Source: an uncultured Rhizobiaceae group bacterium (GTDB lineage Bacteria > Pseudomonadota > Alphaproteobacteria > Rhizobiales > Rhizobiaceae). From it: 64,000 bases of DNA. Below are positions 55,347-59,277 of the stretch, one piece after another; position 1 is the stretch's first letter, and each line of letters opens with the position of its first letter. The translations under genes and the position numbers were made by a program. The notes under the pieces were generated by a model that had not been told where the DNA came from, made no database searches, and saw only the letters and a list, made by a program, of their open reading frames with translations. The DNA lies in assembly GCA_937930635.1 (NCBI GenBank), contig CALHCF010000006.1, positions 62,001-126,000 of the forward strand, read 5' to 3'.

Positions 55347-56312
55347 ATGGCCAATCATCACACAAAAGTACTGATCATCGGCTCCGGCCCGGCTGGCTAC
55401 ACAGCCGCAATTTATGCAGCACGCGCGCTGATGGACCCGATCCTCGTCGCCGGTATCCAGCAGGGTGGTCAATTGACCATCACAACCGAGGTCGAAAACT
55501 ATCCCGGTTATGCCGAGGCTGTTCAGGGGCCATGGATGATGGAGCAAATGCTCGAACAGGCGAAAAACGTTGGCACGACTGTCGTCAACGATACCATCAC
55601 CAAGGCTGACCTGTCGGTGCGTCCCTTTCATTTTGAAGCCGATTCCGGGGACACTTTCACCGCAGACACTGTGATCATCTGCACCGGGGCGCAGGCGAAA
55701 TGGCTGGGTCTGGAATCCGAGCAGAAATTCATGGGCTTTGGCGTTTCCGCCTGCGCCACGTGTGACGGGTTTTTCTATAAAGACAAACACGTGATTGTCG
55801 TTGGTGGGGGCAATACGGCCGTCGAAGAGGCCCTGTATCTGTCTACCCTGGCCTCAAAAGTTACGGTCATTCATCGCCGCGACGAGTTTCGCGCCGAACG
55901 CATATTGCAGGACCGCCTGTTCAAAAAGGATAATGTCGAAATTATCTGGAACAGCGAATTGGTCGATGTGACAGGAAGCGAAGGATTGATGCCTTCCGCC
56001 AACGGAGCCATGATAAAAAACCGGGAGACCGGCGAGACAAATACCATGGATGTCGACGGCATATTCATCGCCATCGGCCATGCTCCTGCCGTGGAGTTGT
56101 TCAAGGATCAGCTAAAGCTGAAACCATCCGGATATTTGTGGACGGCACCCGATTCTACTGCCACCGAAATTCCCGGCGTCTATGCGGCCGGCGATGTGAC
56201 AGACGATATTTACCGTCAGGCGGTAACGGCGGCCGGTATGGGCTGTATGGCTGCTTTGGAGGCGGAAAAATATCTCGCCGAGGCCGAGGCGGCGCTGGAA
56301 GCGGCTGAATAA
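55347..56312 (+). CDS. trxB: Thioredoxin-disulfide reductase
   Basis: The 321-residue flavoprotein has FAD binding at the N-terminus (LIIGSGPAGYTAAIYAARA), the redox-active ACATCDGFFY, NADPH binding in VVGGGNTAVEEALYLS and C-terminal GVYAAGDVTDDIYRQAVTAAG. It transfers electrons from NADPH to thioredoxin. Length is standard for bacterial TrxB. It is followed by a nucleoside hydrolase gene and then lsrB; trxB close to lsrB is a known rhizobial arrangement, fitting the redox-linked role of LsrB. Confidence 0.97.
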   Translation: MANHHTKVLIIGSGPAGYTAAIYAARALMDPILVAGIQQGGQLTITTEVENYPGYAEAVQGPWMMEQMLEQAKNVGTTVVNDTITKADLSVRPFHFEADSGDTFTADTVIICTGAQAKWLGLESEQKFMGFGVSACATCDGFFYKDKHVIVVGGGNTAVEEALYLSTLASKVTVIHRRDEFRAERILQDRLFKKDNVEIIWNSELVDVTGSEGLMPSANGAMIKNRETGETNTMDVDGIFIAIGHAPAVELFKDQLKLKPSGYLWTAPDSTATEIPGVYAAGDVTDDIYRQAVTAAGMGCMAALEAEKYLAEAEAALEAAE

Positions 56313-56325
56313 AGACCTGACCCGC

Positions 56326-57324
56326 TTGAACACCTTTTCTGATCAACCCGGCCTCAAACGCCCTGTCCTGATCGATACTGACCCTGGCGTTGACGATGCT
56401 CTGGCGCTTTTGCTCGCCTTTGCAATGCCCGATATCGATGTGAAAGCCATCACCACAGTTTTTGGCAATGGCCCGCTGGACATGATGACCCACAACGCCG
56501 CTGGTCTTCTGTCACTATTTGGTCGCACCGATATCCCCATCGCAGCCGGGTGCTCCAAACCACGCGACGCGGAGCTGGGCGGTGACGCACTTTTCGTTCA
56601 TGGACCGGATGGTATTGGCGGGAATAAGGCTGTTCCAGATACCACGCCGGAGCTCGATCCGCGTGGCGCTTTGCACCTGATTGCGGATACAGCCAGCGCC
56701 CATGAAGGGGCTTTGATACTGGTTGCGCTTGGTCCGCTCACCAACATCGCCGCTGCCCTGGATCATGACCCTGATCTGGATCTGCGGGTCCGTGAGCTGA
56801 TTATCATGGGCGGGAATGCCTTTGGTCCCGGAAACGCAACACCAACCGCCGAAGCCAATATTCTCAATGATCCCGAAGCCGCCGATATCGTATTTGGCGC
56901 ACGCTGGACGGTTCGCATGGTGGGGCTGGATGTGACGGAAAAACTGCGTATGCCATCACAACAACGCCGTGAGCTTGCAGCGCAGACAGGGCCTGTGGGC
57001 CGGGTTTTCGACCGTGCCGTGCCCTTCTATGAGGATTTCTACAGAAACGCAGCCGGTTTCGATGGCATTGTCTTGCACGACCCGGCGGCCATGATGGTGC
57101 TCACCCACCCAAACCTGTTTGACTGGCAACCCGCTCCAATCCGCGTTGAAACTCTTGGCATGTCGCGAGGTAAAACCTGGCCCAGCCTACGCAACGAGGG
57201 CTGGCATCCCCCGGACTGGTCGGGACGACCAAACATACAGATTGCGCGCACAAGCGATAAAGAAAATCTGTTGCAGGAAATGATGACCCTTTGGCGACAA
57301 GGGTTGGTTGGGAACCACACCTAG
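56326..57324 (+). CDS. Nucleoside hydrolase (IunH/RihA family)
   Basis: The 332-residue protein has the nucleoside hydrolase N-terminus VLIDTDPGVDDALALLLAF, which binds calcium through its aspartates. ALGPLTNIAAAL, the middle IIMGGNAFGPGNATPTAEAN and a NDPEAADIVF segment follow. It cleaves ribonucleosides to base and ribose. The start is a TTG 13 bp after the trxB stop (NTFSDQPGLKRP), so translation may be weak or coupled. It lies between trxB and lsrB. Confidence 0.88.
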   Translation: MNTFSDQPGLKRPVLIDTDPGVDDALALLLAFAMPDIDVKAITTVFGNGPLDMMTHNAAGLLSLFGRTDIPIAAGCSKPRDAELGGDALFVHGPDGIGGNKAVPDTTPELDPRGALHLIADTASAHEGALILVALGPLTNIAAALDHDPDLDLRVRELIIMGGNAFGPGNATPTAEANILNDPEAADIVFGARWTVRMVGLDVTEKLRMPSQQRRELAAQTGPVGRVFDRAVPFYEDFYRNAAGFDGIVLHDPAAMMVLTHPNLFDWQPAPIRVETLGMSRGKTWPSLRNEGWHPPDWSGRPNIQIARTSDKENLLQEMMTLWRQGLVGNHT

Positions 57325-57574: not shown

Positions 57575-58471
57575 ATGCCGCTCGACTGGGACAAGCTGCG
57601 CATTTTCTATAAAGTCGCCCATGCGGGCAGCTTTACCCACGCTTCTGAAACACTCAACCTCAGTCAGTCAGCCATCAGTCGGCAGGTCAGCGCTCTGGAG
57701 ACAGAAGTGGGCGTGCCGCTCTTTCATCGTCATGCCCGTGGTCTAATCCTGACCGAACAGGGTGAAATCCTGTTCCATGCTGCCGAGGAGATGACCGACA
57801 AGCTGGTGAATGTCACCAGCAAGCTCACCGACTTCAAGGGGACAGCCAAAGGCCCCTTGCGCGTCACAACAACCGTAGGGCTGGGTTCAGCATGGCTGTC
57901 CATCCGACTGCATGAATTCATCGACAAATATCCTGCCATTCAACTTGAACTCAAAATGAGTAACGACGAACTCGATCTCGGCATGAGAGAAGCTGATTGC
58001 GCAATACGTCTGCGCCAGCCTTTGCAGCCTGATATTATTCAACGCAAGCTCTTTACCGTGCATTTTCATGTATTTGCAGCTCAAAGCTACATTGATCGTT
58101 TTGGCCGACCAGAACGTCCTGAAGACCTGAAGAAGCACCGCATTATTGTGTGGGGGGGAGAAGCCCCGAAATATCTTGATGATGTGAACTGGCTGCTTCA
58201 CGCGGGTATGCCGCCTGGAAAAAGCCGCAACCCGGTTTTGAAGATCAACTCGATCCTCGCGATCAAGCGGGCCGTTCAACGCGGTGCAGGGATTGCGCTC
58301 TTGCCCGACTATTCAGTCGGTGAAGATGTCGATCTGATACCTGTCATGACCGACACTGATGTACCCAGTTTTGACACCTATTTTGCCTATTCATCAGAAT
58401 TGCGCCATTCAGCCCGGCTGGCGGCATTCCGCGACTTTCTATTGGATCAGGCAAAGAGCTGGCACTTCTAG
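57575..58471 (+). CDS. lsrB: LysR-type regulator, LsrB/VtlR type
   Basis: The 298-residue LysR protein opens MPLDWDKLRIFYKVAHAGSF and has the helix-turn-helix LNLSQSAISRQVSALETEVG, then FHRHARGLILTEQGE. This is the sequence style of rhizobial LsrB and Brucella VtlR. LsrB/VtlR controls redox and envelope genes and activates AbcR small RNAs. The start is the ATG at 57575, not the track's 57545. It sits beside trxB, as in Sinorhizobium. Directly downstream is an AbcR-like sRNA with a LysR-type palindrome in its promoter. Only one cysteine (Cys142) is present, which limits disulfide-based sensing. Confidence 0.88.
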   Translation: MPLDWDKLRIFYKVAHAGSFTHASETLNLSQSAISRQVSALETEVGVPLFHRHARGLILTEQGEILFHAAEEMTDKLVNVTSKLTDFKGTAKGPLRVTTTVGLGSAWLSIRLHEFIDKYPAIQLELKMSNDELDLGMREADCAIRLRQPLQPDIIQRKLFTVHFHVFAAQSYIDRFGRPERPEDLKKHRIIVWGGEAPKYLDDVNWLLHAGMPPGKSRNPVLKINSILAIKRAVQRGAGIALLPDYSVGEDVDLIPVMTDTDVPSFDTYFAYSSELRHSARLAAFRDFLLDQAKSWHF

Positions 58472-58505
58472 TCCGCAAACCGGATAATGTTGAGCCATGC
58501 AAAAA

Positions 58506-58524
58506 ATGCATAGGTCATATGCAT
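58506..58524. promoter_or_regulatory. Putative LsrB-binding palindrome (LysR box)
   Basis: Two perfect ATGCAT half sites flank a 7-base spacer, with an adjacent imperfect copy (atgcaaaa) at 58497. Relative to the predicted sRNA start near 58569 the box spans about -63 to -45, where LysR activators usually bind. The neighbouring lsrB gene makes it the natural ligand (inference). Confidence 0.6.
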
Positions 58525-58533
58525 TTCGCCCCA

Positions 58534-58562
58534 TTGCGACTCGCAGTGTCATCCACCATATG
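58534..58562 (+). promoter_or_regulatory. Predicted sigma-70 promoter of the AbcR-like sRNA
   Basis: A -35 like ttgcga and a -10 like catatg are separated by exactly 17 bases. The predicted start is near 58569. The -35 is imperfect, which fits a promoter that needs an activator, and a LysR-like box lies just upstream. Confidence 0.5.
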
Positions 58563-58568
58563 AGGCAA

Positions 58569-58689
58569 GACGAACGCGGCGGCCAACCTCCTCCTCCCAG
58601 GCTTCCCGTTTATCCCTATGGCAATGCAGGCATCCTCCCAAGCCAGATTGCCAGAATTCTAGCCAGGCCTAGCGGCCTGGCTTTTTTTT
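58569..58689 (+). ncRNA. abcR: AbcR-like (alpha-r15 family) small regulatory RNA
   Basis: About 120 bases between lsrB and the next gene show AbcR features. A 5' anti-Shine-Dalgarno run (cctcctcctccca) lies in a loop. A second stem tggcaat/attgcca exposes catcctccca in its loop, and a strong terminator follows. AbcR RNAs are Hfq-dependent silencers of ABC transporter mRNAs in rhizobia, Agrobacterium and Brucella, acting through CUCCC loops. In Brucella abcR2 is adjacent to vtlR, and the same arrangement is seen here. I infer family from motif layout and context; the 5' end is predicted from the promoter. Confidence 0.72.
58661..58689 (+). terminator. Rho-independent terminator of the AbcR-like sRNA
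   Basis: Arms agccaggcc and ggcctggct pair perfectly over 9 bp with a 4-base loop (tagc), followed by a run of eight T (the first T closes the stem). It is the strongest intrinsic terminator in the window. It closes the sRNA and could also stop read-through from lsrB. Confidence 0.93.
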
Positions 58690-58954: not shown

Positions 58955-58990
58955 TTACCGGTGGACGCAGGGGCGTGCTTCCGCCGGTAA
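58955..58990. repeat. Inverted repeat, 10-bp arms
   Basis: Arms ttaccggtgg and ccgccggtaa pair over 10 bp with one G-T pair and a 16-base loop. It lies 28 bp before a second, perfect inverted repeat. The pair could be part of an untranslated RNA or an intergenic repeat element. Confidence 0.5.
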
Positions 58991-59018
58991 GGGCGACGCC
59001 GTTTCAGGCAGCCGTCCA

Positions 59019-59049
59019 GGGGGTCGAGCCCCCCTCAAGCTCGACCCCC
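59019..59049. repeat. Perfect inverted repeat, 10-bp arms
   Basis: Arms gggggtcgag and ctcgaccccc match perfectly with an 11-base loop. No T-run follows on either strand, so it is not a standard terminator. Its GC-rich stem is unusual among the window's intergenic regions. Confidence 0.6.
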
Positions 59050-59277
59050 ATATCAATGCCCCTGATCACAACAACTTCAATCATTGGGTCAATCAGTTGA
59101 TTCAAAGTGCTTATTGCACCCTTGAACGAAGACTTTTGGCTTCCAAAATAAGACACAGCAGCAGTGGTGTGCGTTTTATCAACTCACGTTGCTGAATATT
59201 ATGTTTCAGTCAGATGTTAATTCCATCTGGGGGCGTGAAACCAAACACAAAAAGCCACAAAGGCAAGGAATAGAGTT

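Follow-up and report, generated by a model that had tools for sequence, protein, structure and literature searches.

The LysR-type regulator gene lsrB and the small RNA encoded next to it likely form a diverged LsrB-AbcR-like regulator-target module that silences the mRNAs of solute-binding proteins. Both lie in the window, the whole 64,000-nucleotide stretch of DNA analysed here, whose host genome (3.04 Mb) is 78% complete. Judged by the lsrB-linked loci of its relatives, this genome falls within the Rhizobiales and probably within the Rhizobiaceae as GTDB defines them. It has been reported that LsrB/VtlR activates abcR1 and abcR2 (PMC8844928, PMC7486931). In the mechanism that we propose, LsrB would bind a three-part ATGC/GCATA box, located roughly 50-75 bases before the start, and would recruit RNA polymerase to a weak TTG/CATAT promoter. 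The product would be an RNA of about 121 nt with two hairpins, each exposing a UCCUCCCA loop, and then a terminator. These loops are predicted to pair with UGGGAGG(A) Shine-Dalgarno sites of periplasmic solute-binding-protein mRNAs (ABC, TRAP and TTT), and the pairing would block their translation. The RNA would descend from the AbcR (ar15) RNA at this locus, with M2 lost, a single copy kept and the ar15 model blind to it. The locus comprises the following features.

55347-56312: trxB, upstream of lsrB
57575-58471, + strand: lsrB/vtlR, LysR-type regulator of 298 aa (ATG ORF with HTH_1 and LysR_substrate domains)
58495-58522, + strand: predicted LsrB box CCATGC-N7-GCATA-N2-TC-N-TATGC, kept in the genus alignment and unique in the window and the genome
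58506-58524, + strand: palindrome ATGCAT-N7-ATGCAT, exact, the sole exact match within the window
58534-58539, + strand: putative -35 hexamer TTGCGA (TTG invariant in 13 genus promoters)
58557-58562, + strand: putative -10 hexamer CATATG (CATAT nearly invariant in genus promoters)
58569-58689, + strand: AbcR-like small RNA of about 121 nt, with the start predicted from promoter spacing and the end set by the terminator T-run
58569-58614, + strand: hairpin 1, with loop AACCUCCUCCUCCCA (aSD1) at 58585-58599
58619-58653, + strand: hairpin 2, with loop AUCCUCCCAA (second aSD, replacing AbcR M2) at 58632-58641
58661-58689, + strand: intrinsic terminator, a 9-pair stem at 58661-58682 followed by eight T to 58689

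The regulator and the fold of the small RNA

The gene had been described beforehand as a LysR gene of LsrB/VtlR type, and its domains and orthology bear this out: it encodes a LysR-type protein whose ortholog is linked to trxB and the AbcR locus. One best ortholog was found in 56 of the 61 relatives searched, and LsrB identity among genus members is 72-81%. A nucleoside hydrolase gene (56326-57324) separates trxB from lsrB; in Agrobacterium the two genes are direct neighbours.

Agrobacterium LsrB has redox-active cysteines, with C144 and C273 as the conserved pair, and the C273S mutant is as sensitive to peroxide as the lsrB deletion (PMC11975290). We sought this pair in the genus LsrB alignment and did not find the second cysteine in any member. 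The single cysteine of the window LsrB is C142, and alanine stands at the site of Agrobacterium C273; position 271 is alanine in every genus LsrB examined, with C142 retained. A disulfide of the C144-C273 type is therefore impossible in the window protein. Outside the genus, cysteine occupies position 271 in 73 of 113 LsrB sequences, a set in which the loci overlap slightly.

Two loops with CCUCCCA-type motifs and a terminator with a long T-run had likewise been noted, and both were recovered. In the computed fold, the two loops have an unpaired probability of about 1, and the RNA is more stable than its shuffles (z = -3.1). Within the RNA there is a 14-aa ORF (ATG at about 58618), which we discounted because, by eye, the one relative compared has no counterpart of it. 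At gathering thresholds, an Rfam search of the whole window found only a tRNA. Weak matches at the RNA to SorX, a Betaproteobacteria toxic sRNA, ncS025 and suhB/MmgR were discarded because they rested on the terminator and the CU-rich motif. A plasmid search returned similarity to the LysR gene only.

Conservation of the small RNA and its relation to AbcR and ar14

The small RNA is real and conserved beyond what chance would give. A covariance model built from eight same-genus genomes with the window left out (R1) found it at 58567-58689 with 62.7 bits (E 6e-15). The same model gave one strong copy, 3' of lsrB, in 13 of 15 same-genus genomes, and the single copy noted earlier in the window holds for its whole genome, where R1 has one strong match. 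The R1 search found no strong copy in G007 (61% complete, no lsrB match) or in G014 (0.9 Mb, 98% complete), which keeps lsrB. RNAalifold on a plain MAFFT alignment recovered the terminator alone, so the covariation analysis relied on a structure set by hand and an alignment fitted to the model; this alignment is fitted to the structure and thus leans towards it. In it, 89.3% of helix cells are paired, as against 75.6 +/- 1.2 in shuffled alignments, and 24 of 34 pairs have changes on both sides, as against 12.8 +/- 2.0; none of 500 shuffles reached either value. When the partners were slid by one column, pairing fell to 41-47%.

The preliminary description had identified the RNA as AbcR and proposed the Rfam AbcR model as a check. 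As written, this identification is not supported. RF02345 (ar15, cut-off 40 bits) had no match at the RNA locus to E 5, its best score in the same genome was 15.6 bits at another place, and it exceeded the cut-off in none of the 15 genus genomes; at lsrB-linked sites of several other genera it scores 71-116 bits. An ar15-like match elsewhere (L147, 35.2 bits) was rejected, as it looks like a normal terminator region next to a tRNA. RF02344 (ar14, cut-off 58.8 bits) scores higher, with 22.4 bits at the window RNA and 22-46.7 at the lsrB-linked RNAs of the genus, all under the cut-off.

The motifs of AbcR are also only partly present. AbcR RNAs carry M1, CUCCCA, in the first hairpin loop and M2, GUUCCC (UUCCCCUC), between hairpins 1 and 2 (PMC5461406). 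In the window RNA, M1/aSD1 (CUCCUCCC) is found unpaired in the first loop. M2 is absent from the window RNA and the genus alignment; a CUUCCC in the window sits in a stem, and a second CCUCCC hairpin loop stands where AbcR has M2. Most lsrB-linked RNAs of named Rhizobiales carry both motifs. Those of Oricola (L067) and Aureimonas (L096, L100, L130 and L132) also lack GUUCCC, and the loss of M2 is thus not peculiar to the window's genus.

In other respects the RNA resembles AbcR1/AbcR2 (ar15, RF02345) of Sinorhizobium, Agrobacterium and Brucella. These are encoded at the same locus and on the same strand, directly behind lsrB/vtlR, and likewise have a terminator, CUCCUCCC(A) in the loop of the 5' hairpin and, from about -61 to -49, a box of LsrB type, and the predicted target class of the window RNA, transporter solute-binding mRNAs, is likely the same. 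Apart from the missing ar15 match and M2, the window RNA differs from them in that its second CCUCCC lies in a closed hairpin loop and its box centre is TC rather than TG. It differs as well in copy number: multiple AbcR copies are reported for Rhizobiaceae and Brucellaceae (PMC3712013), whereas each genus genome with the RNA has one strong copy.

The main rival to AbcR descent is that an ar14 (NfeR1-type) RNA was copied beside lsrB and took over the AbcR site, with the same LsrB-activated Shine-Dalgarno mechanism. Like the window RNA, NfeR1/ar14 (RF02344) exposes CCUCCC in the loops of successive hairpins, and no Rfam family scores higher than ar14 on the genus RNAs (22-47 bits). Moreover, NfeR1 of S. 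meliloti is activated by LsrB (PMC10746234), the RNA that follows lsrB in Oricola is ar14-like with three loops, and genuine ar14 RNAs exist at other places in the genus. We nevertheless regard this origin as improbable. Every genus member falls below the ar14 cut-off, the window RNA far below it, and there are two loops instead of the three CCUCCC motifs carried by NfeR1/ar14 (PMC10746234). The ar14 RNAs of the genus lie at a different locus, whereas the locus and strand of the window RNA are those of AbcR in most Rhizobiales.

Model comparisons point in the same direction: by score, the lsrB-linked RNAs of the genus stand closer to AbcRs found behind lsrB than to the genus's own ar14 RNAs. 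We built a second model (R2) from 32 AbcRs of named Rhizobiales; it includes some promoter bases, has 8 pairs and gives rough E-values, and since its RNAalifold structure was poor it is essentially a sequence profile. R2 matched all 12 genus RNAs, with scores of 22.9-39.6 bits (23.9 for the window RNA, E 0.002), and gave at most 15.7 bits on three DUF1127-linked ar14 RNAs of the genus. Conversely, R1 reached up to 41.7 bits on the lsrB-linked AbcRs of other genera and at most 27.6 on the genus ar14 RNAs. Cross-family scores are partly due to the common CCUCCC motif and terminator. In the R1 search, opposite-strand matches to the terminator alone score up to about 24 bits; the margin is thus genuine, though not large. 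Because the 32-AbcR model still weakly recognises the genus RNAs, descent from AbcR is the likeliest origin. We therefore describe the RNA as AbcR-like, at the AbcR locus and probably descended from AbcR; judged by its sequence, it would work like AbcR in outline, and we do not file it as a member of ar15.

Sequences flanking the small RNA

The three-part box upstream of the RNA has one match in the window, with 0.06 expected, and is the only site with fewer than three mismatches in a scan of the whole genome. Alignment of 13 genus sequences gave the pattern AGCYATGC-N7-GCATAGCTC-N-TATGC, with TTG about 20 bases downstream and then CATAT; the box is least well kept at two loci, L021 and L023. 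The site bound by LsrB in PabcR1 of S. meliloti spans -61 to -49, and the consensus is GCAT-N3-TG-N3-T (PMC8844928, PMC7486931). If the window RNA starts at 58569, its GCAT begins at -61 and the box extends from about -61 to -49, as in PabcR1, with one mismatch to the published consensus (TC for TG). At the second base of this centre pair, 40 of 41 outgroup boxes have G and most genus boxes have C.

The preliminary description had taken the palindrome ATGCAT-N7-ATGCAT as the LsrB site. It is present exactly, and its position agrees with the PabcR1 site; however, the palindrome is the 3' part of the longer box and covers two of its three elements, and TC stands at its centre in place of TG. The pair of -35 and -10 hexamers with a 17-base spacer was found as described, TTGCGA and CATATG. 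An E. coli-type sigma-70 scan called no promoter at these hexamers, which are too weak for the tool.

These upstream elements bear on another explanation, that the RNA is a processing product of the lsrB mRNA 3' end and has no promoter of its own, the box serving something else or nothing. On the strand that carries lsrB, the RNA lies 97 bases 3' of the stop codon of this gene, and its terminator is the only one found between that stop and 58760; 3' UTR-derived RNAs of such a kind occur in Rhodobacter (PMC8625941). Across the genus, the box, TTG and CATAT keep a fixed spacing from the RNA, whereas the distance from lsrB to the RNA varies from nearly 0 to about 260 bases, and the box occupies the position of the one in the proven S. 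meliloti AbcR1 promoter. We thus consider processing from the lsrB mRNA very unlikely and favour transcription of the RNA from its own LsrB-dependent promoter. That a CT-rich spacer and an ordinary lsrB terminator were misread by chance as an RNA gene, as the silent sigma-70 scan might suggest, is hardly credible given the covariation, the match of the held-out model and the genus-wide single-copy conservation.

A second genus-conserved element occupies 58967-59050, a few hundred bases 3' of the small RNA; it has two hairpins and consists of GGGGTGTGCTTCTGTCGCAGGCAGCCGCCCC and then a hairpin whose loop is of the CUUCCCUC type. It was seen in at least 8 genus genomes, the window copy has an insertion, and it matched no Rfam family. 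Downstream of lsrB in a same-genus genome, there is also a near-threshold match to the Whalefall-1 RNA (L017:3481-3534, 32.4 bits, cut-off 37).

Candidate targets and significance of the module

Both loops contain UCCUCCCA, which is the complement of TGGGAGGA, and CUCCCA loops of AbcR are known to pair with transporter mRNAs (PMC5461406). We searched the window's own genome for candidate targets by sequence pattern and found 51 sites of the form TGGGAGG-N(3-10)-ATG, as against 12 for the reversed pattern. Fifteen of the 32 distinct ORFs of at least 50 aa behind these sites encode solute-binding proteins by Pfam, namely nine of ABC type, five DctP (TRAP) and one TctC. The others include two ABC ATPases, an ammonium transporter and a glutamine synthetase. 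None of the 19 ORFs behind AAGGAGG was solute-binding (ten judged by Pfam, the others by eye; Fisher p = 2.6e-4), a control that is weak because the set is small and its sites (26, background 20) barely exceed the background. With the other three first letters, the motif has 101 sites together, about 34 each, and 3 of 15 ORFs sampled from them appeared solute-binding-like by eye. The enrichment at TGGGAGG would be equally compatible with any other RNA whose loops carry CCUCCCA.

In 11 genomes of the genus, genuine ar14 RNAs (L153-L163, 65-88 bits with RF02344) are located directly behind a DUF1127 gene of 45-48 aa, and an LsrB-like box precedes this gene in most of the examples viewed. The counterpart in the window's own genome, L004 (G000:C17:13993-14099), also follows such a gene, scores 46.5 bits and keeps GCATAGCTC, with the first box element missing. 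The layout is shared with the CcsR-type RNAs of Rhodobacter, which sit directly behind the DUF1127 gene ccaF1 (PMC12501420); the window RNA, in contrast, has no DUF1127 linkage.

Further box-like sites were seen before other small genes. One lies on the minus strand of the same genome (L228, G000:C1:1460) before a 54-aa ORF that has no Pfam match and is DUF1127-like by eye only; this ORF recurs with a box in G009 (L223). Sites in three genus genomes (L220, L222 and L224) precede a gene for a small predicted membrane protein (MEKSVEKSCWGI...), which in L222 is followed by an ORF that is rhodanese-like by eye. Box-pattern matches in malate-dehydrogenase-like ORFs (L215-L217 and others) were rejected because they fall within conserved coding sequence.

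The module had been called a complete regulator-target module. The regulator, the conserved RNA, the position of the box and the strong complementarity of the loops to Shine-Dalgarno sites of transporter genes agree with this, but it is not the whole circuit, as similar boxes precede small-protein genes elsewhere in the genome. Two target classes, an RNA and DUF1127 proteins, are in fact already known, since Brucella VtlR controls AbcR2 together with three DUF1127 proteins (PMC12595884). The candidate targets in the genus belong to the same two classes, the lsrB-linked RNA and small DUF1127 proteins; here, unlike in the Brucella regulon, one box-bearing DUF1127 gene also has an ar14 RNA in its 3' region. 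The reduced G014 genome (L227, L041) retains both lsrB and a box-bearing DUF1127 gene, and a CCUCCC RNA is absent from it behind either gene.

It is possible, albeit doubtful, that the whole LsrB circuit has been rewired in this genus, with the thiol pair lost, the box altered, and AbcR1/2 condensed into one RNA with two UCCUCCCA loops. If so, having lost its thiol pair, LsrB may respond to a signal other than the C144-C273 disulfide, and G014, with lsrB and a boxed DUF1127 gene and no RNAs, would indicate that control of DUF1127, not of the RNA, is the indispensable part of the regulon. On AbcR descent, which we favour, an AbcR-type RNA can drift far and still keep its locus, promoter box and predicted target class, and the family model used to annotate AbcR (ar15) overlooks an entire genus. 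The module may also reveal whether AbcR needs two different motifs and whether LsrB functions in the absence of the cysteine pair that has been put forward as its redox switch, and the reduced relative G014 is a natural experiment on the relative importance of LsrB targets.
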